Assembly (NCBI GenBank): GCA_036399055.1
Contig: DASWNX010000039.1
Coordinates: 1-64,000 of the forward strand
Origin: Jatrophihabitans sp.
GTDB lineage: Bacteria > Actinomycetota > Actinomycetes > Mycobacteriales > Jatrophihabitantaceae
Direction: 5' to 3'
Length of the DNA stretch: 64,000 bases
A model generated the notes under the pieces. The model saw nothing but the letters and a program-made list of their open reading frames with translations, ran no database searches and was not told the origin of the DNA. A program made the translations under genes and the position numbers. Shown one piece after another: positions 3,262 to 24,966 of the stretch (position 1 is the stretch's first letter; each line of letters begins with the position of its first letter).

Positions 3262-3265
3262 CCTG

Positions 3266-5606: not shown

Positions 5607-5789
5607 AGTTCCTCCTTGGATCTGTCGTACCAAGTGCGAGTCCGGCATCTGTTTGATGCGCGAGGGGGTGAACGAAGGGGCAAGGGTGGGGAGGTGATCA
5701 CGGCGTCCGCCACCAGCCGCCACCACGTTGATTCCGTAACGGCAAGACGCCTGACTCAGAGCAAAGTCAAAGATCATCGAGCCAAGAGC

Positions 5790-5809
5790 AATATGTCGCT
5801 CGGCATATT
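5790..5809. promoter_or_regulatory. Possible operator upstream of AraC gene
   Basis: AATATG (5790-5795), an 8-nt spacer and CATATT (5804-5809) form a perfect inverted repeat. It lies about 184 bp upstream of the AraC start in an AT-rich patch. Geometry fits a dimeric regulator site, but no partner protein is identified. Confidence 0.35.
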
Positions 5810-6495
5810 TCGACTCGGCTATTATGCTAATGGGTCTGGACAAAGACATAAATGTGCCCACCTGGCATTCGTAATGAGTATTTGCTGCATTAGCCGCCTC
5901 GTGGAAGCCGACCTTAGCAGCATGTATGTAAAAGCGACATACCGACTTCGGACGTTACCCACAGCATGTGGCCTGTCGCTGTGGGCCAACTTTAGTCTGC
6001 CGCTCCGGACGCTGAAAGGAAAGGTTTGGAGCAGATTGCGCACATTAGAAGAAGCGAACCTTAGTGTCTGCACGAAGCTCTATTTCGGGCACTGGATGGC
6101 TCTCTGGAAGTGGTGTTCGCTAGTGCTGAACTGGGACCGCATACGGCCTTGCAGGGCCGGAAGCGAGCGCTACTGAGCCTGGGAGAGCAGTGCGACCCGG
6201 CCGGTGGAGACACTCCAAGATCGGCCTGGGGTTGCTGTCCTGGACTGGCGACGGCGATCGGAATTCTGCTTGTCAGGCGCAAGTACGGGAGTTGTATGCA
6301 ACCAAACCTGTTGGTTTTACTGGGGTTTCCCCCTCATCGTGGCTACCGCGTCGGCGGCCGGCGTCAGGTGGCGGGTCCTGTCTCCAGCTCCCCGGCCCGC
6401 TCGGGCCAGACTGCGACTTGGCGCACAACGGAACTGTGATGGTGTATAGGGGGCCTAACTTGGTGTCTGCAATATTGTGAAAGTCGAACGATTTT

Positions 6496-7257: not shown

Positions 7258-8439
7258 TCAGATGTAGAGCGTGTTGGGCTCCTTGCCGCACAGGACGCGG
7301 CCGTAGAGCTCAGAGTTGGTGTCCGGGTGCATCAGGGCGTGCAGGTTGATGGCCTGGACGTCACGCCAGATCCGCTGCATCGGGACGTGGGAGTAGATCG
7401 AAGAGCCGCCGCTGGCCGAACTGAGGATCTCGACGGCATCCTTGACCAGCTTGCACACCGCGCCCATGTCAGCACGCGCCTTGGCCCGCTCCTCGATGCT
7501 CCACTCCGAGCGCTGGGCGCATTTGGCGTCCACCACAGAAGCCAGCCGATGCGCGTGGAACTCTGCCGCGTCGATTTTCATCGAGGCCTCCGACACCTGA
7601 AGGTGGGTCAGCGGCGCCTCGCTCTGGCTCTCGTAGGTGGTGTAGCTGATCTTCCGGTCCGGAAGCCATTGGAGAAAGGCGTCCCTGGCTGCGAATCCGA
7701 GGCCGAGCACGGCGCCCACGGAGGAGGCCGAGGCCACCGGCAGCAGCGGCGCGTTGTAGATCGGGGACTGGGCGTTGACCGTGGAAGCGCCCTGCCCCTG
7801 CAGTATCGCGGGCAGCGGCATGATCCGTTCCTGCGGAATGAACACCTCGTGCGCGACGGTGCTGACGCTGCCGGTGCCCTTCAGCCCAGAGGTGTGCCAG
7901 TCGTCGATGACCGTCAGGTCAGACATCGGGACGAGGGCGATGACCGGCATCGGCTCGCTGTGCGGACCGACCTGGATCGCGACGATCTCCTGCCAGTGAG
8001 CATGCGGCGCGCCGCTGATGAAACCCCACTTGCCGTTCACCACGACGCCGCCGTCAACCGGGGTGGCCATCGCGGTCGGGCTCAGCGTTCCGCAGATCCG
8101 GACATCCGGGGTCGAGAACACCTCGTCCTGCACCTCGTCGGGGAACTGGCATGCCATCCAGGTCGGGATCCAGTACACCGACGCCGCCCACGAGGTGGAG
8201 CCGTCCGCCCGGCCGAGCTGGGCGGCGACCTCCACCAGGGTGCGGGTGTCGGCCTCGTAGCCTCCGTATCGCGCCGGTGTCCGGAGGCGGAACATGCCGG
8301 CAGCGGCGATGGCGTCGATCACCACGTCGCTGATCCGCCGGTTCTCCTCAGCCCAGGCAGCATGCTGCTGGATGAGCGGCGTCAGTTCCGAAGCTCGATG
8401 GACCAGCTCAGACCGCGTCGGAACTTCGGTCGTCAACAC
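7258..8439 (-). CDS. Acyl-CoA-dehydrogenase-fold flavin-dependent monooxygenase
   Basis: A 393-aa protein of the HsaA/DszC-like group of flavin monooxygenases that share the acyl-CoA dehydrogenase fold. Features seen are an N-terminal helical part with RISDVVIDAIAAAGMFRL and a P-x-R-Y-G-G motif, the central beta region (KWGFISGAPHAHW; WHTSGLKGTGS), and a C-terminal helical domain with SGGSSIYSHVPMQRIWRDVQ. Such enzymes use reduced FMN/FAD from a separate reductase to hydroxylate aromatic or polyketide substrates. The GTG start has AGGAGG 5 nt upstream; an overlapping ATG is out of frame. It is probably a tailoring enzyme of the cluster. No reductase partner is seen in the window. Confidence 0.88.
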   Translation of the reverse strand: MLTTEVPTRSELVHRASELTPLIQQHAAWAEENRRISDVVIDAIAAAGMFRLRTPARYGGYEADTRTLVEVAAQLGRADGSTSWAASVYWIPTWMACQFPDEVQDEVFSTPDVRICGTLSPTAMATPVDGGVVVNGKWGFISGAPHAHWQEIVAIQVGPHSEPMPVIALVPMSDLTVIDDWHTSGLKGTGSVSTVAHEVFIPQERIMPLPAILQGQGASTVNAQSPIYNAPLLPVASASSVGAVLGLGFAARDAFLQWLPDRKISYTTYESQSEAPLTHLQVSEASMKIDAAEFHAHRLASVVDAKCAQRSEWSIEERAKARADMGAVCKLVKDAVEILSSASGGSSIYSHVPMQRIWRDVQAINLHALMHPDTNSELYGRVLCGKEPNTLYI

Positions 8440-9821: not shown

Positions 9822-10475
9822 CTAGGGACCGATCCGGAAGGTGTTGGCGAATTCGGACAACAGCTCGGGGTCACCGGTCACGTGCACACTGCCGTTCTCC
9901 AGAGCCTCTGCCGCGCTGATTCTGCCCGTGAGCAGGGCGGCGAAACCGTGGCCGGTCTCTATCACCAGGTCAGGCTCGGACTGCGGGCCGTCCGTGACGC
10001 CGAGTTGGCCGTCCTGCACGGTCAGGCCGATGACGACCCCCGTGACCCTCAACTCGTAGGTGACCGGCTCCGGGGCGGCCGAGGAACAGCCGCCCTGGTA
10101 GGAGGCGCGCATGGCCATCATCAGCGAGTCGGCGGTGTAGATGTCATCGGCGTCCGGAGGGCCCAGCGATTGACTGCCCCACCGCCCCAGCGCCAGCAGG
10201 ATGTCATCGAGTTCACGGCCGTAGGGGGTGAGCTCGTAGACGACGGCCGTCGCAGGGCGGGGCAGGATGCGCCGCTGCAGCACTCCGTGGTGCTCCAACT
10301 CCTTGAGCCGGGCTGAGAGCACGTTGGTCGGTATGCGTGGCAGTCCCTGCCGCAGGTCGGTAAAACGCTTTGGGCCGATCATCAGGTCGCGGATGATGAG
10401 AAGCGCCCAGCGCTCGCCCACGATCTCCAGGGCACGGCTGAGCCCGCAGATCTGCCCATAGCTTCGTCGTGCCAT
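9822..10475 (-). CDS. HxlR-type regulator with C-terminal SCP2-like domain
   Basis: A 217-aa protein. The first 100 residues are an HxlR winged helix (CGLSRALEIVGERWALLIIRDLMIGPKRFTDLR..., with NVLSARLKELEHHGVL as the recognition part and YELTPYGREL as the wing). The last 90 residues (LTVQDGQLGVTDGPQSEPDLVIETGHGFAALLTG...ALENGSVHVTGDPELL) resemble a sterol-carrier-like ligand domain. The fusion suggests a repressor that reads a hydrophobic ligand. The ATG start lies beside an AT-rich stretch near 10480-10510 that could hold its own operator. It may respond to a cluster product or intermediate. Confidence 0.85.
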   Translation of the reverse strand: MARRSYGQICGLSRALEIVGERWALLIIRDLMIGPKRFTDLRQGLPRIPTNVLSARLKELEHHGVLQRRILPRPATAVVYELTPYGRELDDILLALGRWGSQSLGPPDADDIYTADSLMMAMRASYQGGCSSAAPEPVTYELRVTGVVIGLTVQDGQLGVTDGPQSEPDLVIETGHGFAALLTGRISAAEALENGSVHVTGDPELLSEFANTFRIGP

Positions 10476-10679: not shown

Positions 10680-10712
10680 GGTGGCGCCCGGCCCATGCGG
10701 CCGGGCGCCACC
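10680..10712 (-). terminator. Terminator downstream of the enediyne core operon
   Basis: A perfect 14-bp stem (10680-10693 with 10699-10712) around the 5-nt loop CATGC. It lies 19 bp past the thioesterase stop on the minus strand, as expected for the end of the E4-E5-PKS-E10 operon. Confidence 0.8.
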
Positions 10713-10731: not shown

Positions 10732-11211
10732 TCAGATCTGCTGGACGCCGGCGAGAGTGGGCGCCTGCCCCGCCGGGCCGAAGGAGGTCGTCGCGAACGG
10801 CGCCAGAGCAGCGCGCAGGGACTCTGGCACCCGGGTCGGCTTGGTGTCGGTGTTCGGTCCGCGCATGCACGCGATCCGTTGCCGGCCCCGGGCCACCAGC
10901 ACCTCCATGTCGTCGCCTAGCCGGACGTAGTCGAAGGCGAAACCGATCTGGGTCTGGGTCAGGTCTTCCAGCCGCATCCTGATCGAGAGCTCGTCGAAGG
11001 CGGTGATCTCGACCAGGTACTCGCACTCGCATCTGAGCGTGAACAGCTTCAGGTCGTTCTGCAGGTCCTTCAGCACTGCCGGGGCCCGCTCCCGCAGGAA
11101 CATCTCCCGGCAGCGGCCCTGCCACCTCAGGTAATTGACGTAGTAGACATTGCCCACCAGATTCGTCTCCTCGAAGCCGACCAGGTGCCGGTACTCGTAG
11201 TACTGCCGCAT
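10732..11211 (-). CDS. Enediyne hotdog thioesterase (TEBC/E10-like)
   Basis: A 159-aa acyl-ACP thioesterase of the 4-hydroxybenzoyl-CoA-thioesterase (hotdog) superfamily. The N-terminal NLVGNVYYVNYLRWQGRCREMFL is the characteristic enediyne TE motif, and RCECEYLVEI and MRLEDLTQTQIGFAFDYVRL follow. In known enediyne systems this partner releases the polyene from the PKS by hydrolysis and decarboxylation. The ATG at 11211 lies 2 bp after the PKS stop, so translation is coupled; a longer frame runs into the PKS gene and is rejected. It is the last gene of the operon and is followed by a strong hairpin. Confidence 0.93.
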   Translation of the reverse strand: MRQYYEYRHLVGFEETNLVGNVYYVNYLRWQGRCREMFLRERAPAVLKDLQNDLKLFTLRCECEYLVEITAFDELSIRMRLEDLTQTQIGFAFDYVRLGDDMEVLVARGRQRIACMRGPNTDTKPTRVPESLRAALAPFATTSFGPAGQAPTLAGVQQI

Positions 11212-11213
11212 CG

Positions 11214-14200
11214 TCAGTTCCCGCCTTCGCTCAGCATCGTGAACACCACTGGGTCCTTGACATCGCGAACCGTGGTCGGGAACGTCGTGATCCGCGCGGC
11301 GCCCGAACGCAGGACGACCCAGCGGTCGGCCCGCTGCTCCTCGACCGTGATCGGCTCGATTCGAGCCCGGCCCACCTTGCGCAGGCACTCCACCGCACCC
11401 CATACCCGGGTGGCGGCCAGCGACAGCTCCTCACCCTGTTCGGCGGCCAGCAACCGCGCCAGGGCGAACGGCTCCCGGCCGAGCAGCTCGGCCCAGTCCT
11501 GCTCGGACCTGCCGATGACCACTTCCACGTCGCAGCTGACCGGCTTGGAGCCGCCTGCCACCACGAAGGTCAGCCCGGCCGAGTGCGAGGACGACACCTC
11601 GACGCCACCGTCGACCTCGGGCTTGCCGTCCGGGCGGTAGCGCACCGTCGTGGGCTCGCCCAGCGCCCAGCCGAGCGCCTTGGCGGTCTGCTCGCGCCGA
11701 GCAGTCTGGCCCTGGGCCGGATAGGCCCCGTCTGGCAGCACCGCGCACCGCAGGTCGAGGTCGCCCAGGATCAGCTCGGCGCGCCGCTGCAGATATGGCC
11801 CCAGCAGGCTGGCAAGCCACGGACCGGTTCCGTCCTGCTTGCGGACCGCCTGCAGTCGCAAGCCTTCCCAGCGCTCGACCAGCTTGCCCGCCAGATCGCA
11901 GACGTCGAGGTCGTAGAGGTAGGTGTCACCCTCACGCAGGCGTTCCACCGCATGCAGCGTGACCTTCTCCTGGGCCAGCACGTCGCGGCGGTCGGCCAGA
12001 TACAGCCGTTGGATGCCGGCCGGCAGCAGCGTCGCCTCCGGCACGCAGCACTGGATAGCGTGCATCAGGGCGTCGCGGGTCCCCGGGTCTGCCAGCACCA
12101 GATCCTGGGCGAGGAAGCCTGCGAACCAGTCCTGCGAGGGCTGGTTGCCGATCTCGGCCACGCAACTCTTGGCAGCCAGCTGCCGGTAACCCAGCAGCCG
12201 CTGGAACCGGCCGCCCTGGAACAGGATCGAGCCGTAGAGCTCCCGCGCCGGATCAAGCGGCAGCAATTCCGACCGCCCGCTCGAGCCGACCGTCTCAGGA
12301 AGGCTCTCCGAATACCGCAAGATCGCCCGGAAGTGGTCGGCCTGGAAACCGGTGTCACTGCTGCGGATCACCGCCTCGACGTCGCCGTTGTCGGTGACCA
12401 GCGCCGCGATACGGATCGTGGTGCGGCCCTGCGCCGGCACCACGATCGGGCGCAGGAACTCCACGTCGGTGAGCACCGGTGGCCGCTCGTTGCCGGTCAG
12501 GGCTGCCGCGGCCTGCGCCATGGCCTCCATTCCCAGCACCGCCGGAAACAGCAGGTCGCCGTCGAGCAGATGGTCGGCGAGGTAGAGGTCGGCAGTGGCC
12601 GACAGGTCGGCCTCGGCGACCAGTTCCACGCCCGGGTAGTGCACCTGCGTCCGGTCCAGGAACCGCGACAGCGCAATCTCGCGCTGCTCGAACGTGATCG
12701 TCGGCAGTCCCTCCGCGCGGCCCATCACCACCATGGTCGTGGGCGCGCTCGGATCGGCGAGCGCCCTGTTCAGAATCTCGATGCCGTCCTCGGTCCGGAT
12801 CGGAGAGATGCCTTCCCGCATCAGCGATTCCAGCACCCCCAGGCGCTCACCCATGCCCGAGCCTGACCACACCGACCACTCCAGTGCCAGGCACCGGCAA
12901 TGGGGGTAGTCCTCGGCCACCCGGGCAGTCAGGTCGGTGAGCCAGTCGTTGGCGGTGGCGTAGTCGGCCTCACCCCGCAGGCCCGCTCGGCCGATGATGC
13001 TGCCGAAGGTGACCAGCAGCCGCAGCGAGCCCGGATCGGTTGCCGCGAGCACTGCCTCCAGCCCGCTGATCTTGGGCGCCAGCGTGCGCTCGAACGAGGG
13101 TTGGTCGAGGTTGAGCAGGGGCTTTGGCTCATTGCGGCCGGCGCCGTGCAGGACGCCGGTGACCGGTCCGAGCGCGCCTCGGATCTCCTCGACCGCGGCC
13201 TTCACCTCATCGGCGGAGGTGACGTCGGCCCGGACGTAGCGGTAGCGCACTCCGGCCGCGGCCATCCGCTCCAGATTGGCGGCTAGCTCCGAGTCGGCCT
13301 CCGGGCCGGACCGGCCGAGCAGTCCGATCGCCGCGCCGGTGCCCTGGGCCAACGCCAGCGCGCACTCGGCCGTGATCCCCTTGCCGCCGCCGGTGACCAG
13401 CAGGACGTCCTGCGGACCCAACGGCGAGCGGCCCTCAGCGCCGGCGCCGAGCTGCAACGGGCGCAGCACCGGAACCCGGCGAGTTCCGGCAGCGTCGTAG
13501 CCGACCTCGCTGAAGCCGTCGGTGGCGACGACGTCGGCGATGATGCGGCGCACCGCGGTCCTCACCTGGTCAGGAGTCAGATCCAGCGGCAACGGCAGGG
13601 TGATCACCGTGGTCGACACCGTCGGCGACTCCAGGCACAGGGTCTTGGCCAGGCCAGCCGCGCCGCGACGGTCACCGACCACCACGAAGCGGGCCGGCGA
13701 CGGCAATGCCAGCACCGCCTTGGCGGCGGCCAGCATCAGCGGCACATGGCTCTCATCGCAATCGCGCGGTAGGCAGAGCGCGACTCCGTCGCCGAGCTGA
13801 GCACCTTGCAAGGCCTGCCGCAGCTCGGTAGCCAGCGGATGCCGTTCACTGGCGAAGACCTGCCAGCTCCCAGCGCCCGCGGGCCCGGCGGCTGGTCCGG
13901 CCGCTGCCGGCGTCTGGTCGATCGCGAAGGCCCGCACCCAAGGCGCGACCCCCAGCGCCGCGGCCGTGGGCTCCTCCTGCGCCAGAGCGCTTCCGCCCAG
14001 ATCATCGAGCATCTGGGCTAGCTGGGCCAGCGTGGAGGTGGCGAACGTCGAGGTCGCCATCGGGGCGGCCAGCCCCAGCTCACGCGAGGCCTGGTTGACG
14101 ATCTGGCCGACCGTGATCGAGCTCAGGTGCAACTCATCCAGCGGATGGCTGCCGGCGCTGACCGCCTCCAAGGGCAGTTCGGCCCGCTCGGCAGCCAGCC

Positions 14201-17123
14201 GGCGAAGGACGTCCACCGCGCTCTGCGGCGGCCCGTCCGGCACGGCCTCCGCCGGCGTGGCCTGAGCCTCAGGCTGGCCCGACGGGACGCTGTCGGGCGC
14301 CGCCGGCGCCGGTGGCCGGGGGGCAGGCGATGGCAGCGCCCGGACGGCCGGAGCCGCCGGCGTGGCTGCCGGTCTTGGCATCCCCAGCTCGTCGGTCGGC
14401 GCCTGCTCGCAGGGGCTGGCGAAGAACCGGAACTGCTTGCCGGGTTCGAGGACCCTGGTGAACCGATCGCGGTGCAGTTCGGCATGGCGGACCGGCGCGC
14501 CGAGGACGTAGCACGCAGCGACCGCCCGCAGCAGGCCCGCGAGTGAGTCGCTGTCGGTCTCGAGCGAGATGGTCGGGACGAACGGGGCGATCTCGCTGGC
14601 CAAACCGCGCAGGATGGTGCCCGGACCGACCTCGAGCAGCAGGTCGACGTCACCGGCCAGGGCCGTCACCGCCTCGGCGAAGCGCACCGGCTCGCGGACC
14701 TGGCGGGCCAGCAGGCCCGGCAGGTCGGTGTCGGCGGCCAGGGTGTCCCCGGTCACCGTGGACACCACCCGGCGCCGCACCGGTGAGAACCGGTGGCCCT
14801 CCAGGTGGCTGTGCAACGCCTCGGCAGCCGCCGACACCAGCTCCGAATGGAAGGCGTGGGACACCGGCAGCCGCATCACGGTCAGCGACTGGGCCGCGGC
14901 CCTGGCGCAGACTCGATCGACGGCGTCGGCCGGGCCGGACACCACGGTCTGGCGGGGGCCGTTGTAACCGGCGATCACCACCGGCTCGCCTGCCAGCATC
15001 GGCGTGACCAGCTCGGGCGCGGCCATCACGCCTGCCATCGCGCCGTCGCTGCGGCCGGTCTCAGCCATGATCTGGCCACGAGCGGCTGCCAGCGAGAGCA
15101 GGGCGCTCTGGTCATATGCGCCGGCCCAGTGCAACGCGGTCAGCTCACCGAGGCTGTGCCCGGCAGCGGCCACGCCCTCGATCCCGAGCAGGTCCAGCAG
15201 CCGGAGTCCGGCCACCGACGAGGTGGCGATTCTCGGCTGGGCCGCCGCGGTGTCGGCCAAGCTTGCGCCCGCCGGCAGCGGGTGATCGCGGTAGAGCTCC
15301 TGGACCACCTCGAAGCGGCGGGCGATGGCGCCGCCGTCACTGCGTCGGCCGGCGCCCTGGCCCGGGAACAGGAACCCGATGCGCGGTGTGCCGCCGGCGG
15401 CGCCGAGGAAGACACCACCGTCGGGGTCGAGCACAGACCTGGCGCCGTTGTCCAGCAGCATCAGCAGCTTGCCGAACTGGCGCTCGGCTTGCTCGGGGCT
15501 GTTGAGGACCACCGCCGCCCTGATCGGGCGGTCGGCGAGGCCGGCCTCGAGGGTGCCGGCCAGGTCACCGAGGTCGGCGAAGGACATCCGCGTCGACATG
15601 GCCGCCAGCTGGCTGATCTTGCCACGCAGGTCGGCGATGCTGTCGGCGTCGATCAGCAGCAGCTCGCAGTCCTGCCTGGAGCGCACCAGCCGCGCCACCT
15701 CCGGGGCGATCTCGGTCCGGCGCTCGCCGTCGGACTGCTCGAGGACGACATGGGTGTTGATCCCGCCGAAGCCCATCGAGGACACCCCGGCTCGGATCGG
15801 CCCGCTGGCCGGCCACAGCTCGGCCGAGCTGGGAACGCGCAGCGCGGGACGCTCACCCTGCAGCTCCGGATGCGGATTGATGTGGCTGGTCGCCGGCGGG
15901 ATCACCTGGTGGTGGACGGCCAGGACGGCTTTGAGCAGGCCGCCGACCCCCGCAGCCGCCTTGGTGTGCCCGATGTTGCCTTTGAGCGTGCTGATCGCGG
16001 CCGGCGGGGCGTCGGGGTCGGCAAGCCGGCGGGCCGTGGAGAAGGCCCGCAACTCGGTGGCGTCACCGACCGCGGTCCCGGTGCCGTGGCCTTCGAGATA
16101 ACCCACCGTCTCAAAGCCGAATCCGGCGCTGCGATAAGCGCGTTTGATGGCCAGCTGGTGACCGGCTGCCTCGGGCCGGGTGATCCCGCCCTTGCCGTCA
16201 GAGGAATAACCCCAACCGACGATGCTGGCGTAGCGCTTGAGTCCCTGCTCGATCGCGTCCTGCTCACGCATCAGGACCAGCATTCCGCAGCCTTCACCAG
16301 GCCAGAACCCGTTGGAGTCCTTGTCGTACACCCGCATCTCGGTGGTGGCCAGCGCGCCGGTCTTGGCGAATCCGATCACCTCGAACGGGTCGATGCTCAG
16401 GTCGACCCCGCCGGCGATCACGGTGTCGAGCTGCCCTTCGGCCAGCGCGTTGCACGCGGTGGTCACCGACAGCAGCGATGAGGAGCAGGCGCCGTCGACG
16501 GTGTAGCCGCCCCCGTTGAGATCGAAGTGATTGCAGATCCGTCCGGCGATGGTGTTGGCCAACCCGCCGGCCAGCATGTCCTCGTCGACCGGCGCGAACG
16601 GGCTCTTGTAGCGGGTCTCGAGCTGATCGAGGAACCCGCTGAGCGCGGCGTCGTCCCAGCCCTGCTCGCGCAGGGCGGCCCCGACGGTGCGCCGGACGTA
16701 GGGCCAGCGCAGCCGCATCATGCTCGCCCGGCTGAACTCGCCGGTCAGGCTGTTGCCGATCACCACGCCGGTGCTCTCACGCTTGAGGCCCTGGCCATCG
16801 GCGAACCCGGCGTCGGCCAGCGCCCGGGCGGCGGTGTCCAACGCCAGCCAGTGCGTCATGTCGGTGGAGCGGTAGGTGCTTCCGGCGACTCGGTACTTCA
16901 CCCGGTCGAACTCGAAACCCTCGATGACCGCTGCCTTCTGCGAGTAGAACCGGTCAGGTGCGGCGGGGTCGGGGGAGTAGTAGTCCTCCAGCCGCATCCG
17001 CTCGTCGGGCAGCCGGCGAAACGCCCGTCGTCCGGCGAGCACGTTCTTCCAGAGGTCCTCGGGGGAGTCGGCGTCGGGGTAGCGGCAGGAGATGCCGACG
17101 ACTGCGATGCGATCGGCGCTCAT
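11214..17123 (-). CDS. Iterative enediyne polyketide synthase (PKSE)
   Basis: A 1969-aa single-module iterative type I PKS with the enediyne domain order. KS: residues about 4-440, with GACSSS Cys213, EGHGTGT and GNIGHTKA. AT: about 540-850, with GHSLGE Ser657 and a SHAFHS malonyl motif. ACP: about 950-1050, DELHLSSI, attachment Ser near 1001. KR: about 1240-1430, VTGGGKGITAE and DYATANDW. DH: about 1490-1700, DHLLDGDLLFP. C-terminal phosphopantetheinyl transferase-like domain: about 1780-1969, CDVEVV and WGAVECLRKVG. In studied clusters this enzyme builds the linear polyene precursor of the warhead. The start at 17123 (MSADRIAVVG) overlaps the E5 stop as ATGA; an upstream in-frame extension lies inside E5. 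All core catalytic residues appear present. Confidence 0.97.
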   Translation of the reverse strand: MSADRIAVVGISCRYPDADSPEDLWKNVLAGRRAFRRLPDERMRLEDYYSPDPAAPDRFYSQKAAVIEGFEFDRVKYRVAGSTYRSTDMTHWLALDTAARALADAGFADGQGLKRESTGVVIGNSLTGEFSRASMMRLRWPYVRRTVGAALREQGWDDAALSGFLDQLETRYKSPFAPVDEDMLAGGLANTIAGRICNHFDLNGGGYTVDGACSSSLLSVTTACNALAEGQLDTVIAGGVDLSIDPFEVIGFAKTGALATTEMRVYDKDSNGFWPGEGCGMLVLMREQDAIEQGLKRYASIVGWGYSSDGKGGITRPEAAGHQLAIKRAYRSAGFGFETVGYLEGHGTGTAVGDATELRAFSTARRLADPDAPPAAISTLKGNIGHTKAAAGVGGLLKAVLAVHHQVIPPATSHINPHPELQGERPALRVPSSAELWPASGPIRAGVSSMGFGGINTHVVLEQSDGERRTEIAPEVARLVRSRQDCELLLIDADSIADLRGKISQLAAMSTRMSFADLGDLAGTLEAGLADRPIRAAVVLNSPEQAERQFGKLLMLLDNGARSVLDPDGGVFLGAAGGTPRIGFLFPGQGAGRRSDGGAIARRFEVVQELYRDHPLPAGASLADTAAAQPRIATSSVAGLRLLDLLGIEGVAAAGHSLGELTALHWAGAYDQSALLSLAAARGQIMAETGRSDGAMAGVMAAPELVTPMLAGEPVVIAGYNGPRQTVVSGPADAVDRVCARAAAQSLTVMRLPVSHAFHSELVSAAAEALHSHLEGHRFSPVRRRVVSTVTGDTLAADTDLPGLLARQVREPVRFAEAVTALAGDVDLLLEVGPGTILRGLASEIAPFVPTISLETDSDSLAGLLRAVAACYVLGAPVRHAELHRDRFTRVLEPGKQFRFFASPCEQAPTDELGMPRPAATPAAPAVRALPSPAPRPPAPAAPDSVPSGQPEAQATPAEAVPDGPPQSAVDVLRRLAAERAELPLEAVSAGSHPLDELHLSSITVGQIVNQASRELGLAAPMATSTFATSTLAQLAQMLDDLGGSALAQEEPTAAALGVAPWVRAFAIDQTPAAAGPAAGPAGAGSWQVFASERHPLATELRQALQGAQLGDGVALCLPRDCDESHVPLMLAAAKAVLALPSPARFVVVGDRRGAAGLAKTLCLESPTVSTTVITLPLPLDLTPDQVRTAVRRIIADVVATDGFSEVGYDAAGTRRVPVLRPLQLGAGAEGRSPLGPQDVLLVTGGGKGITAECALALAQGTGAAIGLLGRSGPEADSELAANLERMAAAGVRYRYVRADVTSADEVKAAVEEIRGALGPVTGVLHGAGRNEPKPLLNLDQPSFERTLAPKISGLEAVLAATDPGSLRLLVTFGSIIGRAGLRGEADYATANDWLTDLTARVAEDYPHCRCLALEWSVWSGSGMGERLGVLESLMREGISPIRTEDGIEILNRALADPSAPTTMVVMGRAEGLPTITFEQREIALSRFLDRTQVHYPGVELVAEADLSATADLYLADHLLDGDLLFPAVLGMEAMAQAAAALTGNERPPVLTDVEFLRPIVVPAQGRTTIRIAALVTDNGDVEAVIRSSDTGFQADHFRAILRYSESLPETVGSSGRSELLPLDPARELYGSILFQGGRFQRLLGYRQLAAKSCVAEIGNQPSQDWFAGFLAQDLVLADPGTRDALMHAIQCCVPEATLLPAGIQRLYLADRRDVLAQEKVTLHAVERLREGDTYLYDLDVCDLAGKLVERWEGLRLQAVRKQDGTGPWLASLLGPYLQRRAELILGDLDLRCAVLPDGAYPAQGQTARREQTAKALGWALGEPTTVRYRPDGKPEVDGGVEVSSSHSAGLTFVVAGGSKPVSCDVEVVIGRSEQDWAELLGREPFALARLLAAEQGEELSLAATRVWGAVECLRKVGRARIEPITVEEQRADRWVVLRSGAARITTFPTTVRDVKDPVVFTMLSEGGN

Positions 17124-18127
17124 ACCGCCACCGCCGCGGGGGCCTGGCTGATGGAGCGCTCGGCGCCTGCGGCCCGACGCTGCTTGGACTTGGCGATGAA
17201 GTGCGCGCCCCACCAGCCCAGACCGCGCAGGGCACACACCGCGGTGGTGGCGAAGAACAGCGTGTAGACGACGTTGAACTGCATCATCACCGCGTAGACG
17301 AAGGCGACCGAGGCGCCGAACATGAACTGGCTGCGAGCCTTGAACGGCGTGGTGCCGGGGTCGGTGATCATGTAGTTGGTGAACAGCACGAAGGCGACTC
17401 CGGTCATCGCGCCGAGCGCGGAGAACAGCGAGACGTCCCAGATCCAATGCCGGACGAAGGCCTGGATGGCGAAGGCGCCCAGCCAGCCGACGATCAGGGG
17501 GATTTTGCGGGTGAGCATGGCGTTGATCACCGTTCCGGAGGTGACGATGATGAGGGGGATCATCACCCGAAAGAATGTGTTGGCGTTCTCGGTGAACTGG
17601 TAAGGCGGGGCGATGCTGCACCAGTGGCTGAAGCAGAGCAGCACCGCGGTGATGCCGAAGTTGGACGGGTTCATGAAGTGCCGCATCCGCCCGGCGATCG
17701 GCGCCTGCAGGACATGCTTGGCGCCGACGCCCACCACCACGCCGAAGGCGACCGGCCAGAACTGGTTGTTGGTGTAAAGCAGCATGCTGACGGCGAGGCT
17801 GGTGATGTGGGCCGGCAGCAGTGACTCGTAGAGGCCGCGGAAGCCGTTGCCCCGGTACTTCGGCTGCCGCCGGTGCACCCACGCGCTGATGGTCTCGAAG
17901 AAGATCTCTGTGGAATAGCCCACCAGCACCGACAGGATCGGCCACAACCACGGTTGCTCGAAGCCGAGCCACGCGTAGCCGAAGATGTTGAGAACGCTGA
18001 TCGAGATGGCGAAGTTGCGCAGCGCGATATAGCGAGGGTCGGCCTTGGGCTTGCCGGCCGGCGCTGGAGCCGCGACCAGCGGCGATGGGCTAGGCGCAGC
18101 CGGTTGCTGCTGGATAGTGGCGGTCAT
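17120..18127 (-). CDS. UnbU/E5-like membrane protein (RnfD/NqrB-related)
   Basis: A 335-aa polytopic membrane protein with a Pro/Ala-rich cytosolic N-terminus, then many hydrophobic spans from about residue 35 (FAISISVLNIFGYAWLGF) to near the C-terminus (VVYTLFFATTAVCALRGLGWWG). It belongs to the enediyne UnbU group, distantly related to the RnfD/NqrB flavin-carrying electron-transport subunits. MNPSNFGITAVLLCF and TDPGTTPFKARSQFMFG are landmarks. Its precise role is not established; electron transfer at the membrane is a family-based guess. The ATG at 18127 overlaps the UnbV stop (ATGA), and its own stop overlaps the PKS start. Confidence 0.9.
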   Translation of the reverse strand: MTATIQQQPAAPSPSPLVAAPAPAGKPKADPRYIALRNFAISISVLNIFGYAWLGFEQPWLWPILSVLVGYSTEIFFETISAWVHRRQPKYRGNGFRGLYESLLPAHITSLAVSMLLYTNNQFWPVAFGVVVGVGAKHVLQAPIAGRMRHFMNPSNFGITAVLLCFSHWCSIAPPYQFTENANTFFRVMIPLIIVTSGTVINAMLTRKIPLIVGWLGAFAIQAFVRHWIWDVSLFSALGAMTGVAFVLFTNYMITDPGTTPFKARSQFMFGASVAFVYAVMMQFNVVYTLFFATTAVCALRGLGWWGAHFIAKSKQRRAAGAERSISQAPAAVAV

Positions 18128-20112
18128 CGGCTTGATACCTCCTGGACAGTGTCCGTCAGGACGAGGGAGTGGACGCCAGGCGTCATCTTGAGTTGTTGCT
18201 TGTGCAGTCGGCCGTCGACGTCGCGCCATTGCAGCTCCACGTCGGCTTCTGCGCTGAAGTCACCGAGGCCGAAGTGGACCTCGAAGCTCCGGAAGCCGCC
18301 GTGACCGCCGCCGCCGTCGAGTTGAGAGATCCTCTTTCCGTCCGGGGTGGTCACGGTCACCGTCGCGTTGTAGGCCGGCGCCCCGATATTGGCCAGTCCC
18401 TTGCCAGCTACCGCGCTGCTGTCACTGGCAGGGCGGTAGAGGTGCAGGTTGAGGTAGTTGCCCTTGTTCGGAGACTGGTTGGCGTAGAAGGCCGGTGGCC
18501 CCCACTGCCGTGCGATCGCGAAGTCCAGGGCTCCGGTGCCGGTGGTGTCAGCCGTGGCGAGCCCGCGGCTCGGAATGGGCACATCGGTTCCGATCTGAGA
18601 GCTGATGTTGACGTACTTGCCATCGGAGTTCTTGGCGTAGAAGGCCATGTGCTGATTGCCGGCGACGTCGTCACCGGGGCCGACGTTCGGCCACATCGCG
18701 GGGTTGCTGAGCAGGTCGTCGTTGGTCATGGCCATCTCCTGTAGCCATGGCCACCGGTCGATCTTGCCCTTGACGAAGCCGGTCGCCTGCAGGACGGACA
18801 GGTCACCGTTGTTGAGGAAGTCGCCCATCTTGACGTCCCAGCACCAGCCGGTCCAGCCCATTCCGTACTTGACGGCCTGCTGCTCGAAGGGCGCGATGCC
18901 GGCGTCGAGCTTCTTCTTCATCTCGGCTTGGTCCTTGGCCTGGTTGATGAAGATGAAGTTGCTCTCCTGCAGGCCCCACTTGGCGGTGATGTTGCTGACC
19001 GCGAGGTCGAACTTGCCGGTGCGGTTGAGATCACCGAAGTCCGCGCCCATTCCCTTGAACGAGTCCTTGCCGAGCACGAAGGACTTGGCAGTCGTCGGCG
19101 CGCGCTGCCCGCTGGCCTCCTTGAACCTGATGTCGCCCGGGGTCGAGATGTTGTACAGCAGGTGGTCGTGGCCGAAGTCGTTGGCGATGTAGATGTCAGG
19201 CAGCCCGCTGCCGGTCAGGTCGGCGCCGGTGATGGCCAGCGTCCACCCGGTGGAGACCTGGTAGGGGATGGCGGCCTGCTGCTCGATGTAGTGCACGGTC
19301 GGCTTGTCGCCGGAGGTGGCGCTGTGCCAGCGCAGCACCCGGTCACCGCCGCCGTTCTTGGCGGTGGACAGCGAGTTGTTCATCTCGACGTTGTTCTGGC
19401 CGTGGGGATTGAGCACGTCGGACTCGGGGAAGTAGTTGCCGATGATGATGTCGGGGTGGCCGTCGCCGTCGAGGTCGCCGACATAGTCGGCGTCGGTGTT
19501 CCACCGCGGGCCGTGGTACCTGCCGTCCAAAGACTGCGAGGGAATGAGCTCCTGGGGCCGGTAGGAGGCCATGGACAGGGTGGTGGCGCTGCTCTTGGCC
19601 AGGAACAGGATGGGGGTCCGGCCCCAGTAGGTGACCAGCAAATCCATCCGGCTGTCGCCGTTGAAGTCGCCAGGGTTGCAGCCTGTCGGCGCCATCGCGG
19701 CGTCCATCGGCAACGGGCTGGGGTCGAGCACGAACGGCGAGAACCGGTCCGCCGCCACCGCGGTCGGCGTGTAGGTGACGATCACGTCGTTGGTCCGGGT
19801 GTCCACGATGCACATGCCGTCCGAGCGCCCGTTGCCCACCAGGTCATTGATCGCGATGCTGGCGCCGACCGAGGAGATCCAGGCCGCGATCTTGGCGTAT
19901 GCGCGGTTGACCGGGCGGATGGTCTCCATCTTCTGGTCGTTGTAGCCGGCAGGCATGGCGATGGGCAGCTCTTTGAACTTGTACTTGCTCGCCACTGTCT
20001 CCGCGCCGTAGGTCGCCACCCGGCTTTGAGCGACCACGTACAGGGAGACCAGGACCACGGCGGCCACCAGGCCGGGAACCAGCTTGCGGACACGTTCACG
20101 GGACACTGCCAT
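18124..20112 (-). CDS. UnbV/E4-like protein: FG-GAP repeats plus ASPIC/UnbV domain
   Basis: A 662-aa protein with an N-terminal hydrophobic span (GLVAAVVLVSLYVVA) that acts as signal or anchor, so the body is probably extracytoplasmic. Several FG-GAP/VCBS-type repeats follow: DFNGDSRMDLLVTYWG, DLDGDGHPDIIIGNYF, DLTGSGLPDIYIANDFG, DLNRTGKFDLAVSN and a last GALDFAIARQWG. The C-terminal ASPIC/UnbV domain contains GAPAYNATVTVTTPDGK, GGFRSFEVHFGLG and VELQWRDVDG. The ATG at 20112 has AAGGG about 6 nt upstream. Conserved in enediyne clusters next to UnbU and the PKS; its molecular job is unknown. It is the first gene of the tightly coupled core operon. Confidence 0.93.
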   Translation of the reverse strand: MAVSRERVRKLVPGLVAAVVLVSLYVVAQSRVATYGAETVASKYKFKELPIAMPAGYNDQKMETIRPVNRAYAKIAAWISSVGASIAINDLVGNGRSDGMCIVDTRTNDVIVTYTPTAVAADRFSPFVLDPSPLPMDAAMAPTGCNPGDFNGDSRMDLLVTYWGRTPILFLAKSSATTLSMASYRPQELIPSQSLDGRYHGPRWNTDADYVGDLDGDGHPDIIIGNYFPESDVLNPHGQNNVEMNNSLSTAKNGGGDRVLRWHSATSGDKPTVHYIEQQAAIPYQVSTGWTLAITGADLTGSGLPDIYIANDFGHDHLLYNISTPGDIRFKEASGQRAPTTAKSFVLGKDSFKGMGADFGDLNRTGKFDLAVSNITAKWGLQESNFIFINQAKDQAEMKKKLDAGIAPFEQQAVKYGMGWTGWCWDVKMGDFLNNGDLSVLQATGFVKGKIDRWPWLQEMAMTNDDLLSNPAMWPNVGPGDDVAGNQHMAFYAKNSDGKYVNISSQIGTDVPIPSRGLATADTTGTGALDFAIARQWGPPAFYANQSPNKGNYLNLHLYRPASDSSAVAGKGLANIGAPAYNATVTVTTPDGKRISQLDGGGGHGGFRSFEVHFGLGDFSAEADVELQWRDVDGRLHKQQLKMTPGVHSLVLTDTVQEVSSR

Positions 20113-20487: not shown

Positions 20488-21555
20488 TCAGCAGCTGATC
20501 TGCAACCAGCTGGCGATCTGGCGGGCGGCTGCCATGCTGGCCCACGAGGTGGTGGCGATCAGCGCTTGGTCACCGGGCTGCTCGCGGCCGAAGGCGTCGA
20601 TGACCGACTGGTCGACCTGGAAGGGCGCCAGCGCGGTGAGCAGCACGAGCCGGCCGCTGGCCTGCTGGCCGGCCGGCAGCGCCAGCACCTCTTCCTCAAC
20701 CCAGGACCGGCTCAGGCCGAGCTGCCGGCCGTCCCAGCCGGCCAACCGTGACCGCAGCGCAGTCCGCACGGGTGTCGGGACGTGCGTGTGACCGGCCGCC
20801 TCGATGGCTGCGCTCGCGCGGGCGAACGCCTCGGCGATGTGCGGGCTGCCGGCCGCCCACCACAGCTCCGGCGGCAGCGGCGCCGCGGGCAGTAGCTCCA
20901 GTGAGGCGCCCGGCTGATGAGGATGACCGGCGGTGGCGCTGATGAACCGTCCGAGCACCCGCAGAACGCCGCCGCGGGCCAGCGTGGGAAGGGCCGGCGG
21001 CAGTGGCGAGTCGTCGAGGAAGATGTCGACCATCCGGTTGACGTAGTGAAAGGAGACGGCGACGCCGGCGATCTCGGGCGCCTGCTCCAGAGAGAAGGGC
21101 GCGTCCTGGGGTCGGCCGTCTGGGCGCATCCCCGACCGGCGCGCCCACTGGGCCAGCGCCCGCACGTCAGGATCTGCGATCGAGTCCATGTCGCCGGAGG
21201 TGACCGCGGCCGCGGTCGGGCCGCCCAGCAGCCCGGACAGCGTCGCCGAGTGCACCGTGACGCAGTACGGGCACGCGTTGCCCAGCGACACGGCCGCTGC
21301 GACGGCTTCCTTGGCGCCCCGCGAGACCTGGCCGTCAGCCAGCAGCGGCTCCCGCAGCATCATCCAGCTGGCGGCCAGCGGCCCGGGCGCCGGCGAGTGC
21401 AGCGCCACCGGCGGCGCCAGCATGCCGAAGTCCCGCTCGGCCTGCCGGTAGACCCTGGTCACCATGTCGTCAGCGCCGCCTGTTCGGGCCGGGGTGACGT
21501 GCTTGATGCGATCCAGCGATCGGCGAAGCGCCTTCTGCAGAAGTGACTTGGCCAT
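20488..21555 (-). CDS. AhpD/carboxymuconolactone-decarboxylase-like protein
   Basis: A 355-aa protein with one AhpD-type active-site motif, GNACPYCVTVHSATL, near residue 95 (CxxC followed by a His three residues later). AhpD-like proteins typically carry redox-active CxxC pairs. The protein is about twice the length of a single CMD domain, and its second half (PPELWWAAGSPHIAEAFARAS...) lacks the CxxC, as in other long two-lobed members. The ATG at 21555 has AGGAG upstream. Same strand as the GMC gene, 32 bp after it. A role in peroxide or thiol redox handling around the enediyne is inferred. Confidence 0.82.
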   Translation of the reverse strand: MAKSLLQKALRRSLDRIKHVTPARTGGADDMVTRVYRQAERDFGMLAPPVALHSPAPGPLAASWMMLREPLLADGQVSRGAKEAVAAAVSLGNACPYCVTVHSATLSGLLGGPTAAAVTSGDMDSIADPDVRALAQWARRSGMRPDGRPQDAPFSLEQAPEIAGVAVSFHYVNRMVDIFLDDSPLPPALPTLARGGVLRVLGRFISATAGHPHQPGASLELLPAAPLPPELWWAAGSPHIAEAFARASAAIEAAGHTHVPTPVRTALRSRLAGWDGRQLGLSRSWVEEEVLALPAGQQASGRLVLLTALAPFQVDQSVIDAFGREQPGDQALIATTSWASMAAARQIASWLQISC

Positions 21556-21587
21556 CGACGCTCCTAGTGGGTGCACATGGGCCGACG

Positions 21588-23243
21588 TCAGCCGGCGAGC
21601 AGCCGAGCGGCTGCCTTGTCGGCCTGGTTGCGGGCGCTGACGGCGCCGTCCGGAGACGGGGCGCCATAGCGGACGTCGACACCGCGTCGCTGGGCCGCCC
21701 GGATGATCGCCGGCATGGCCCGCTCGGCCAGGGCGGCGATGGTCATCGCCGGATTGACGGTCAGCGCGCCGGGCACCGCCGAGCCGTCGGTGACGAAGAT
21801 GCCCGGATGACCGCGCAGCTCGTGGTCAGCGTCCAGCGCCGAGGTCTTCGGGTCGTCGCCGATCCGGCAGGACGCCAGCGGGTGCACGGTGACCGCGCCC
21901 ACCACGTCATTGGTCCAGGGCATCACCTTGGCCAGGCCGTCCTTCTCCAGGATGCTCCTGACCGCGGCGTCTCCCTTGGCCCAGCCGTTGAGGGTGTTCT
22001 TGGTCGGCTGGTACCTCAGCGGGCCCAGACCGAACATCTGCTGGGACACCCGCATCGAGCTACCGGTAGGCGGCGGCGGTCCGAAGACGCCTTCGTTGTC
22101 GTCCTCGGACATGATGAAGACGGTCAGCCAGGACTGCCAGCGCCGCAGCATCTCCTTCTTCTCCTTGCCGAACCAGGTCGGTCCGGTGGCGTCGGCCACC
22201 TGGGCCAGGGTGGTGCCCAGCCCCGGTGGGAAGTACAGCTGCTCCAGGGAGAACCGGTCGTACTCCGGCAGCGAGCCGTCCTGCCAGTCCCAGCACGCGG
22301 CGACCGGGCCCTTGCCGATCTGCCCTGCCTCGAAGGCCTTGCCGCCACCGCGGTTCAGGCCCAGCACGTCACGAACCCGGTCCTCGTTCAGCACGGCGGT
22401 GTTGAGGCGCTCGCCGTTGCCGGAGAAGTACTTGCCGACCGCCTCCGGCATCGTGCCCAGGCTGGGCTCCGAGCGCCGCAGGATGACCGGTGTCGCCACC
22501 GAGCCGGCCGCCAGCACGATGAGCTTGGCGTCGATGACGCCGTTGCCGGTCTGCTCGCGGTAGTCGACCTCGTCCAGGGTGTTGTAGTGCACCCGGTAGC
22601 CGCCGTCGGAATCGCGGGTGATCTGCTGGACCTCGTGCAGCGGCCGGATCTCGGCGCCGTGCGCGAGCGCGGCGGGAAGGTAGTTGAGCAGCAGTGAGCG
22701 CTTGGCGTCGAACTTGCAGCCCGACATCATCCAGTTGCAGTTGACGCACCGCGAGACGTCGACCGCGGCCGGAGCCGGATTGCAGGTGTGACCGGCGTTG
22801 GCGCACGCCGCTGCCCACAGCCCGCCGGCGTAGGGCACGGTCTCCCACGTCTGCTTGGTGACCGGCAGCGACTCGGCCACCCGGTCATACCAGGGCTCCA
22901 GGCTGTCCCGACTGACGGCGGCCGGCCACATCCGACGGCCGACGCTGCCCTGCCGGTCGAAGATGAAGCGCGGCGCGCGCGGCATGGTGGCGAAGTACAC
23001 GACGCTGCCGCCGCCCACGCAGTTGCCGCTGAGCACGCTCATGCCTTCGCCCACGGTGAAGTCGAGCATCCGGGTGGTGGACGAGCCGAGTGCGAAGTCA
23101 TGCTCGAAGTCCTCGGCCTCCAGCCATGGGCCGCGTTCGAGCACCACCACCCGGGCGCCGCCGGCAGCCAGGTGGTAGGCCGCGATCGCGCCGCCGAAGC
23201 CGCTGCCGATGACGAGGACGTCGGTGCTTTCGGTGCTGCTCAT
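21588..23243 (-). CDS. GMC-family FAD-dependent oxidoreductase
   Basis: A 551-aa flavoenzyme. The FAD-binding Rossmann motif VIGSGFGGAIAAYHLA is at the N-terminus, followed by VVVLERG. The C-terminal GMC signature HPLASCRIGDDPKTSALD...GIFVTDGSAVPGALTVNPAMTIAALAERA is clear and most resembles the cholesterol-oxidase/large-dehydrogenase subgroup. An inserted segment with CVNCNWMMSGCKFDAKRS has closely spaced Cys residues. The ATG at 23243 overlaps the DUF5987 stop by 4 bp (ATGA). GMC dehydrogenases often need a small partner subunit, and the coupled DUF5987 protein is the obvious candidate. It probably oxidises an alcohol in the enediyne pathway. Confidence 0.92.
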   Translation of the reverse strand: MSSTESTDVLVIGSGFGGAIAAYHLAAGGARVVVLERGPWLEAEDFEHDFALGSSTTRMLDFTVGEGMSVLSGNCVGGGSVVYFATMPRAPRFIFDRQGSVGRRMWPAAVSRDSLEPWYDRVAESLPVTKQTWETVPYAGGLWAAACANAGHTCNPAPAAVDVSRCVNCNWMMSGCKFDAKRSLLLNYLPAALAHGAEIRPLHEVQQITRDSDGGYRVHYNTLDEVDYREQTGNGVIDAKLIVLAAGSVATPVILRRSEPSLGTMPEAVGKYFSGNGERLNTAVLNEDRVRDVLGLNRGGGKAFEAGQIGKGPVAACWDWQDGSLPEYDRFSLEQLYFPPGLGTTLAQVADATGPTWFGKEKKEMLRRWQSWLTVFIMSEDDNEGVFGPPPPTGSSMRVSQQMFGLGPLRYQPTKNTLNGWAKGDAAVRSILEKDGLAKVMPWTNDVVGAVTVHPLASCRIGDDPKTSALDADHELRGHPGIFVTDGSAVPGALTVNPAMTIAALAERAMPAIIRAAQRRGVDVRYGAPSPDGAVSARNQADKAAARLLAG

Positions 23244-23809
23244 GCGGGACTCCCAGAAGCGGTGGTGGCCGGATGGATCTCGGCGAGCTGACGGCCGTAG
23301 GTGTAGTCGGGGAACCGCCACAGGCCGTCGGCGTCCGGCGGCCTGAAGCCGAGGGTCAGCAGGCCGGGGTGTCCGCCGGCCAGCGCGTCGACGGTGTGCA
23401 GGTGCGCGCCGCTGTCGAAGGACATGGTGGAGAACATCGCCAGGTTCACCCAGCCCTGGCGCTCCGGGTGATCCCCGGCGGTCAGCCGCAGCACCAGGGC
23501 GGCCCGGTGGTCGTAGTCGAGGCTGACGAAGGCCGGGACGCTGTCATCGAGCTCGATTCCCTGCTCGCCCGCGTACTCGCGGGCGTGGCCGTTGAGCATC
23601 GCGGCCAGGATGGGCAGGTACAGGGACAACCCACCCGCCGGGGATTCGAGCAGTTCGACGGCGCCCGCCGCCACCGCCCCGCCGTCATGGGACACCCCTG
23701 CCACCGCCCGGTCACCAGGCCAGCGCTTGTTCCCGGGAACGATCGTGTCGGCGAAGGCCTCGAGGGTCATCACCTTGATCTGCTCCTCGTCGGAGGTAGT
23801 CGGTTCCAT
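23240..23809 (-). CDS. DUF5987-like small subunit of the GMC oxidoreductase
   Basis: A 189-aa protein with MTLEAFADTIVPGNKRWPGD near the start, which resembles the gluconate-2-dehydrogenase subunit-3 style beginning, and RFPDYTYGRQLAEIHP near the end. It matches what I recall of the DUF5987 family. The stop overlaps the GMC start by 4 bp, indicating equimolar, coupled expression. Likely role: accessory subunit for folding, export or electron transfer of the GMC enzyme; there is no clear signal peptide. The ATG at 23809 has GGAGAGG upstream. Confidence 0.75.
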   Translation of the reverse strand: MEPTTSDEEQIKVMTLEAFADTIVPGNKRWPGDRAVAGVSHDGGAVAAGAVELLESPAGGLSLYLPILAAMLNGHAREYAGEQGIELDDSVPAFVSLDYDHRAALVLRLTAGDHPERQGWVNLAMFSTMSFDSGAHLHTVDALAGGHPGLLTLGFRPPDADGLWRFPDYTYGRQLAEIHPATTASGSPA

Positions 23810-23858: not shown

Positions 23859-24680
23859 TCAGCGACGGGCGGCCAGCGTGCTCAGGTGGTGGTGAAACTG
23901 CCCGGGCCGGCGACCCTGGCCGGCCGGTCCTCGGTAGGCCTGAGCGATCTGGAGCCAGTGCTGGGCGTCCGGGCCGACGGCGGTGATCGCGAGGTCCTCG
24001 GGGTGCCGGCGGCGGGTGACCAGCAGGCAGAAGTCCTCCGCCGGGCCGCTGATCCGCTGGTCGGCGTCCTCGGGACCGAACTGCCACTGGGCGCCGGAGG
24101 GCGCGGTCAGCTCGAAACGGAATCGCACGTCCGGGACGGGCTCATCGCGAGCCAGGTAACCGAAGTCCCAGGTGCGCACCGCGAACGCGACGAGGAATCT
24201 GATGCGGTCAGTGCGGCGACGCTGGACGCCGAGCGTGTCGGCGATGTCCTGGCCGTGCGCGAAAGCCTCCGTCATCCCGGCCATCATCAGGATGCCGCGC
24301 GGCAGTGGTCTGACCAGCCACGGCACCAGCTGGTCCGCGGGCACCGAGGCCAGCGCCTGCATCGCGGCGGCCCGCTCGGCCCGCCAGCGGCTGAAGAGCA
24401 CCTCGGGCGGGTGGGGCAGGTACTGGCTCAACGCGTTGGCCACGCTGACGGTGAAGTCCGGGTCGAGTCCTCGCATCAGCGCGATGAAGGCATCCGGATC
24501 GGAGGCGGACAGCCCGGCCATCCGGAACGTCGCGGCCAGGTGCGCGACCTGATGTGCCACGGTCCAGCCAGGCGCCGGGGTGGGCAGCTTCCACTGCTCG
24601 TCGGCCAAGCCGGCCAGCAGCTCGTCCAGCTCGTCACATTCGGCTGTCAATGCCTCGGTCGGGTCCGGGTGCTGGATCAC
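23859..24680 (-). CDS. TIGR03084-family DinB-like metal-binding protein
   Basis: A 273-aa protein of the DinB/mycothiol-dependent maleylpyruvate-isomerase-like superfamily. WKLPTPAPGWTVAHQVAHLAATF and MMAGMTEAFAHGQDIADTLG carry the metal-ligand His residues, and TIGR03084 members are about this length. A C-terminal SCP2-like part (FRFELTAPSGAQWQFGPEDADQRISGPAEDFCLLVTRRR) follows. The GTG at 24680 is preceded by GAGAGGA. The in-frame extension upstream passes through a 17-bp tandem repeat and is rejected. Mycothiol-dependent chemistry, for example S-conjugation or protection from a reactive enediyne, is possible but not shown. Confidence 0.82.
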   Translation of the reverse strand: MIQHPDPTEALTAECDELDELLAGLADEQWKLPTPAPGWTVAHQVAHLAATFRMAGLSASDPDAFIALMRGLDPDFTVSVANALSQYLPHPPEVLFSRWRAERAAAMQALASVPADQLVPWLVRPLPRGILMMAGMTEAFAHGQDIADTLGVQRRRTDRIRFLVAFAVRTWDFGYLARDEPVPDVRFRFELTAPSGAQWQFGPEDADQRISGPAEDFCLLVTRRRHPEDLAITAVGPDAQHWLQIAQAYRGPAGQGRRPGQFHHHLSTLAARR

Positions 24681-24709
24681 GTGATCGTCCTCTCGCCGCT
24701 GCGTCGCTG

Positions 24710-24771
24710 CGTGCCGGTTGTCGCTGCGTGCCGGTTGTCGCTCCGTGCCGGTTGTCGCTCCGTGCCGGTTT
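24710..24771. repeat. 17-bp tandem repeat, about 3.6 units
   Basis: The unit CGTGCCGGTTGTCGCT[G/C] recurs at 24710, 24727 and 24744, with a partial unit at 24761. It lies in the divergent intergenic region between the TIGR03084 gene and the giant DUF11 gene. It may be a slippage product or a multi-site regulator target affecting both promoters. Confidence 0.85.
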
Positions 24772-24966
24772 GTCTGATCGAGCGTCCTGCAGCGCCTTGG
24801 CGAGTGTTTCTCTGTCCGTGCCCGGAAGGCGGCAGTCGGCCGGTTGGAAGTCCGGGAGTCCCGGGCCGCGGCACCCGCGGCTGAAAGCGGCGAAGCGGGC
24901 GGGTGGCGAGGCAGCCAGGGAACCGTTCGCACCTCATCTGAATCTCACATCGGTTACGCTGCGCGT

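Follow-up and report, generated by a model that had tools for sequence, protein, structure and literature searches.

Enediynes are DNA-cutting natural products, and their biosynthesis has been compared between gene clusters before. According to the excerpt of PMC5181780, the clusters under comparison there share a cassette of the genes E3, E4, E5, E and E10, with E2 being exclusive to nine-membered and R3 exclusive to ten-membered clusters. Homologues of the enediyne polyketide synthase (PKSE) and its thioesterase yielded a linear heptaene in E. coli, and for dynemicin the steps leading to the core are described as mostly unknown (both from an excerpt of PMC8725005). A similar survey of enediyne clusters was carried out in Phytohabitans (PMC7692728, in excerpt). 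Here, we analyzed bases 1–64000 of contig C39 from a Jatrophihabitans genome (4.53 Mb, 46 contigs, 99.46% complete), in the following called the window, in which position 1 is contig base 1 and the GC content ranges from 63 to 74% in 2-kb steps. Judging from its genes, the window very probably carries a compact enediyne core cluster of the nine-membered type, reaching from 1141 to approximately 24.9 kb. It adds one more example to a well-populated enediyne family; the kind of system as such is known. The center of the cluster is the operon E4-E5-PKSE-E10 (10732–20112, minus strand), which comprises the following features:

10680–10712, minus strand: hairpin with a 14-bp stem that follows E10, probably a terminator, lacking a T run
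10732–11211, minus strand: E10, hotdog thioesterase, 71% identical to C-1027 E10
11214–17123, minus strand: PKSE of 1969 amino acids with the order KS-AT-ACP-KR-DH-(PPTase), identified by Pfam, trees and catalytic columns
17120–18127, minus strand: E5 (UnbU), membrane protein, 54% identical to C-1027 E5, with an NQR2_RnfD_RnfE match under its cut-off
18124–20112, minus strand: E4 (UnbV), with PF07593 and PF13517, 46% identical to C-1027 E4

A preceding interpretation of the bare letters, the sequence-only reading, had proposed an enediyne core operon at this place, and the comparisons bear this out. The thioesterase matched the structures 4i4j (E = 1e-68, listed as an ACP-polyene thioesterase), CalE7 (7e-64) and DynE7 (3e-38), the PKSE is 54% identical to SgcE of C-1027 and 42% identical to DynE8, and the trees discussed below agree. 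The overlap of the UnbV- and UnbU-like genes as ATGA was confirmed and recurs at the E5/PKSE junction, and the thioesterase gene indeed starts 2 bp downstream of the PKSE (TGA-CG-ATG). Along the PKSE, Pfam found the predicted KS, AT, ACP, KR and DH domains in this order. KS Cys213, His346, His386 and Lys388, AT Ser657, ACP Ser1002 and KR Tyr1388 are invariant in all 95 aligned PKSE rows (in one row, L029, a stop sign was dropped), and the catalytic columns checked hold no inactivating mutation; the DH motif HxxxGxxxxP was seen in the window sequence, with the conservation count covering the seven residues named. For the C-terminal PPTase, also part of that prediction, neither Pfam nor the PDB search gave a match in this region; the end was tentatively assigned by alignment with other PKSE ends and by motifs typical of such a domain.

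Two further claims held in part. The predicted hairpin terminator exists as a fold with a perfect 14-bp stem and a 5-nt loop (z −2.63, one of 200 shuffles being equally good), but no T-tailed terminator was found behind E10: the hairpin has no T run and is missing from the T-tail scan, whose total of 3 sites shows no excess over the chance mean of 3.1. The core had furthermore been called complete. While the four genes are in place, E3 likewise belongs to the universal cassette, and this gene is found at 2290–3261 on the plus strand. With it, all five cassette members E3, E4, E5, E and E10 are present, at 53, 46, 54, 54 and 71% identity to their C-1027 counterparts.

An iterative synthase that makes no enediyne, such as a polyunsaturated fatty acid (PUFA) synthase, is an alternative, and the window protein does match the PfaA model TIGR02813. 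The score of 495.9 bits stays far under the cut-off of 1010.1, however, and the gene is surrounded by a full enediyne gene set, so that this explanation is hardly credible. A grouping with PUFA synthases was not seen by this model score, and the trees themselves comprised PKSE relatives with SgcE and DynE8 as the characterised anchors and no PUFA synthase.

With regards to ring size, the E2 gene points to the nine-membered type, and the class call rests on the E2 side of the E2/R3 marker pair. The two DUF1702 genes of the window are:

1141–2106, plus strand: E2 (PF08012, E = 1e-134), 58% identical to C-1027 E2 and 38% to C-1027 E3
2290–3261, plus strand: E3 (PF08012, E = 6e-136), 53% identical to C-1027 E3 and 38% to C-1027 E2

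In a DUF1702 tree of 39 proteins, calculated by a quick method, this pair splits, with one protein in the clade of C-1027 E2 (support 100) and the other in the E3 clade (support 99). A ten-membered cluster would share the E3/E4/E5/E/E10 cassette, which is common to all enediynes (PMC5181780, in excerpt), and the dynemicin locus, recognized because the DynE8 AT domain in the PDB matches its genome at 100%, shares these genes with the window. It differs in showing no E2-like match: only one DUF1702 match, a distant one, was obtained from its genome. Together with two relatives from Micromonospora, DynE8 forms a separate group on a far branch in both the PKSE and the DUF1702 tree; the genomes of this group each have one DUF1702 match at 32–37% identity to E2. 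The window proteins fall outside this group (support 100 for the PKSE). Together with an E2 that sits in the E2 clade, this makes a ten-membered cluster very improbable.

The PKSE trees were calculated with FastTree (95 rows) and with the quick mode of IQ-TREE (24 rows), using DynE8 and the two Micromonospora relatives as outgroup. A scan of public genomes gave at least 589 pattern matches, among which at least 561 stretches encode relatives of the window PKS (taken at E up to 1e-3, not each confirmed as PKSE); the best 80 of these are the named loci referred to below. In both trees, the window PKSE is sister to a PKSE on contig C5 of another genome of the genus, G532 (support 100), within a clade supported by 99 (FastTree) and 98 (IQ-TREE). 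This clade also contains Streptomyces albospinus, M. haikouensis, S. fenicalii, K. phosalacinea, Streptomyces ATexAB-D23, the NBC_00726 and NBC_00887 plasmids and a second PKSE of G532, and the C-1027 PKSE sits in the neighboring clade. FastTree warned of long branches joining L065/L117 and the DynE8 group, which lie away from the window, and the 24-row set excludes L065/L117. The PKSE of G636, a third genome of the genus, is identical to that of L065. Compared with 28 genomes that harbor named loci, the FabF of the window reaches 64% identity at most, with Micromonosporaceae as the nearest.

Some loci in these trees deserve separate mention. The PKSEs of L019, L020, L022, L026 and L034 lie near that of the window and far from the DynE8 group, in genomes with DUF1702 proteins at the E3 but not the E2 level, which misfits a simple E2 rule. 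The S. albospinus locus L024 encodes the PKSE most similar to the window protein (68%) among the 87 plasmid and named loci, the latter being the best 80 of at least 561. E10 is also present there, and no further gene of the window cluster was detected in its 25.8-kb locus on a 45-kb contig. The identities of E3 and E7 had moreover prompted the idea that the PKSE operon and an E2-E3-E7 operon stem from different lineages. This mosaic origin was dropped: a constraint uniting the PKSE-clade rows withstood the test for both E7 (p-AU 0.66) and E3 (p-AU 0.108), and for E4 and E9 the sampled rows grouped in the tree even without it, though not with strong support (79 and 93, respectively).

The remaining genes of the cluster and its edges are:

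1–810, minus strand: IS481-type transposase, cut by the contig end (Pfam rve and LZ_Tnp_IS481)
3191–4648, plus strand, start probably near 3263: E7-type cytochrome P450 (PF00067), 64% identical to the C-1027 P450 beside SgcE6
4767–5861, minus strand: AraC regulator (PF12833), 37% identical to a C-1027 AraC regulator
7258–8439, minus strand: flavin monooxygenase of the HsaA/acyl-CoA-dehydrogenase fold (PF08028, NF045629 under its cut-off), 62% identical to C-1027 WP_010056299.1
8872–9744, plus strand: alpha/beta hydrolase (PF00561)
9822–10475, minus strand: HxlR regulator with an SCP2-like tail (PF01638, PF02036)
20488–21576, minus strand: alkylhydroperoxidase/CMD-like protein, 46% identical to a C-1027 alkylhydroperoxidase
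21588–23321, minus strand: E9, GMC oxidoreductase (PF00732/PF05199), 73% identical to C-1027
23240–23809, minus strand: E8 (DUF5987, PF19449), 57% identical to C-1027
23859–24932, minus strand, true start inside the open reading frame: E11, TIGR03084-type with MDMPI fold (PF11716), 53% identical to C-1027
24967–33720, plus strand: giant secreted protein containing 12 DUF11 stretches, its end LPxTG-like (PF01345, translation), cluster membership unproven

The accessory genes had been said to match no characterised cluster. This claim is unsupported, since 13 of the 15 cluster genes (1141–24932) match proteins of the C-1027 plasmid SGLP1 of Streptomyces globisporus (locus L013) at 37–73% identity, the window proteins having been compared with 21 of its 39 annotated features. 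Shared are E2, E3, E4, E5, E, E7, E8, E9, E10 and E11 as well as the AraC regulator, the alkylhydroperoxidase-like and the flavin monooxygenase genes, in a different gene order. The plasmid additionally encodes E6 and the apoprotein, neither of which was found in the window genome. E7, E8, E9 and E11 are the names that we presume for the P450, DUF5987, GMC and TIGR03084 genes; in the plasmid record, SgcE6 is the only gene carrying an Sgc name. The alpha/beta hydrolase and the HxlR regulator found no match among the 21 proteins, and a DNA-level search of the whole L013 locus gave a 42% match for HxlR and none for the hydrolase. The uncharacterised plasmid clusters of Streptomyces NBC_00726, NBC_00887 and NBC_00523 share the PKSE (66–67%), E2, E3 and E7 to E11, but carry E6, unlike the window; NBC_00726 and NBC_00887 are annotated with a non-ribosomal peptide synthetase (NRPS) and a 4-hydroxyphenylacetate-3-hydroxylase-type gene. 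The alkylhydroperoxidase-like gene occurs in 46 of the 80 named loci.

By analogy with the described systems, the PKSE and E10 would make and release a conjugated heptaene, which the membrane protein E5, E4, E3 and the nine-membered-specific E2 would then convert to the nine-membered core together with the redox proteins E7, E8 and E9. The AraC and HxlR proteins probably regulate the cluster, as their families suggest. Decorating genes are few, with one flavin monooxygenase and one hydrolase, and a Pfam scan of 40 window proteins showed neither a glycosyltransferase nor an NRPS.

In the genus comparison, which covered nine genomes including that of the window, DUF1702 genes were found in three. 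Contig C5 of G532 holds all 15 cluster genes in the order and orientation of the window at 65–91% identity (14 of the 15 at 76–91%), followed by the DUF11 giant. The single values are 84% for E2, 91% for E3, 88% for the P450, 76% for AraC, 90% for the monooxygenase, 79% for the hydrolase, 80% for HxlR, 87% for E10, 85% for the PKSE, 86% for E5, 88% for E4, 80% for the alkylhydroperoxidase-like protein, 87% for E9, 83% for E8 and 65% for E11. The clusters differ in the stretch from the monooxygenase to E10, where G532 has six extra predicted genes surrounding the hydrolase that the window lacks, namely an enoyl-CoA hydratase, a CoA-transferase, a P450, an N-acetyltransferase, an FkbM methyltransferase and the flavin reductase E6. 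When searched against the whole window, five of them gave no match and the P450 matched only E7, at 27%.

Several observations weigh against the reading as a nine-membered core cluster. Neither E6 nor a remnant of it was found in the gap between HxlR and E10, which resembles G532 only beside HxlR, and the best E6-like proteins of the window genome, where E6 alone of the six extras was sought, are general flavin reductases of 34–38% identity. Yet E6 (counted at ≥40% identity) occurs in 59 of the 61 loci bearing E2 (counted at ≥50%); among named loci with full flanks, drawn from the best 80 of at least 561, it is found in 56 of 61. At the contig end, the transposase lies where G532 and G636 have a 311-amino-acid protein beside E2, a protein absent from the window genome. 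The placement of the PKSE cannot fix the ring size on its own, because relatives in the same clade come without an E2-level match: the genomes of M. haikouensis, S. fenicalii, Streptomyces HPF1205, K. phosalacinea and ATexAB-D23 match E2 at only 39–44%, which is the E3 level, and that of S. albospinus gave no match to the E2 query. SgcE and DynE8 are, besides, the only characterised PKSEs in the trees. Finally, no neocarzinostatin-family apoprotein (PF00960) was found in the window genome, with the C-1027 plasmid matching as positive control, so that the self-protection of the host is left unexplained.

Since the window comes without E6 and the five further genes of G532, the product may be either a sparsely decorated core, for which a flavin reductase encoded at another genomic site would step in, or that of a decaying pathway. 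In the latter case, the core genes would still be open, but the loss of E6 and its five neighbors would have ended production or left a polyene or side product. The missing counterparts, the lack of an E6 remnant and the IS481 transposase at the edge all fit such a decay. On the other hand, none of the 15 remaining genes has an internal stop, the catalytic columns of the PKSE are intact, other flavin reductases of the genome might replace E6, and part of the six genes could be gains of the G532 lineage. We therefore consider decay possible but rather unlikely; it would also be compatible with a core cluster of the nine-membered type. The differences could stem from a reduction of the window copy or from the gain of some genes by G532. 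Since E6 is so widespread, its loss is likelier than its gain, and by its gene content the window copy may be a reduced one.

The G532 genome offers further observations. The 311-amino-acid protein (L113:5679–6614), without a Pfam match, adjoins E2 on its left side in G532, its neighbor in G636 being a fragment of E2, and is a possible further enediyne cluster gene. Beside the HsaA-type monooxygenase, G532 carries the enoyl-CoA hydratase, the CoA-transferase and the hydrolase (L113:13542–14723 and L113:15256–18603), and this set resembles a side-group branch of the CoA-thioester or ring-breakdown type. A second PKSE operon is located on contig C33 (L116) and a separate E3-P450 pair on C6 (L115). 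On C7, a DUF1702 gene and a further copy related to the 311-amino-acid protein, a paralogue, lie close to a third thioesterase match, which contains an in-frame stop.

The absence of an apoprotein gene is not unusual, since only 7 of 21 predicted nine-membered clusters have one according to the excerpt of PMC5181780. In G532, the PF00960 search gave one match under the family cut-off. The giant DUF11 protein, which adjoins E11, is secreted and has a GS-rich end with LPRTG near its terminus. It was found in all three genomes of the genus that have the cluster, adjoining it in G532 and occurring also in G636, and in none of the five others searched, nor in the other loci compared. As a candidate cluster gene it was rejected, the genus distribution being no evidence of function: the neighboring BrkB protein is 85–90% identical among the carriers vs. 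55–59% in four of the five other genomes, with no match in the fifth, so the carriers look like one clade and the distribution may reflect one event. That an almost undecorated nine-membered core goes along with an LPxTG-anchored DUF11 giant, which would protect the host or display the compound at the cell wall, is a highly unlikely scenario. At 47230–47982, 22 kb from the cluster, lies an HTH-AHSA1 fusion, which is probably unrelated; AHSA1/START is also the fold adopted by CalC, which confers self-resistance to calicheamicin.

Few enediyne compounds are known, with 11 structures in 2016 (PMC5181780, in excerpt), while their gene clusters are common, as the PKS relatives in at least 561 stretches indicate. 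Being small, the cluster described here is a candidate system for finding the set of genes that is sufficient to build a nine-membered core and for learning whether E6 can be dispensed with. The cluster adds a host genus to the family and leaves the picture of enediyne biosynthesis unchanged.

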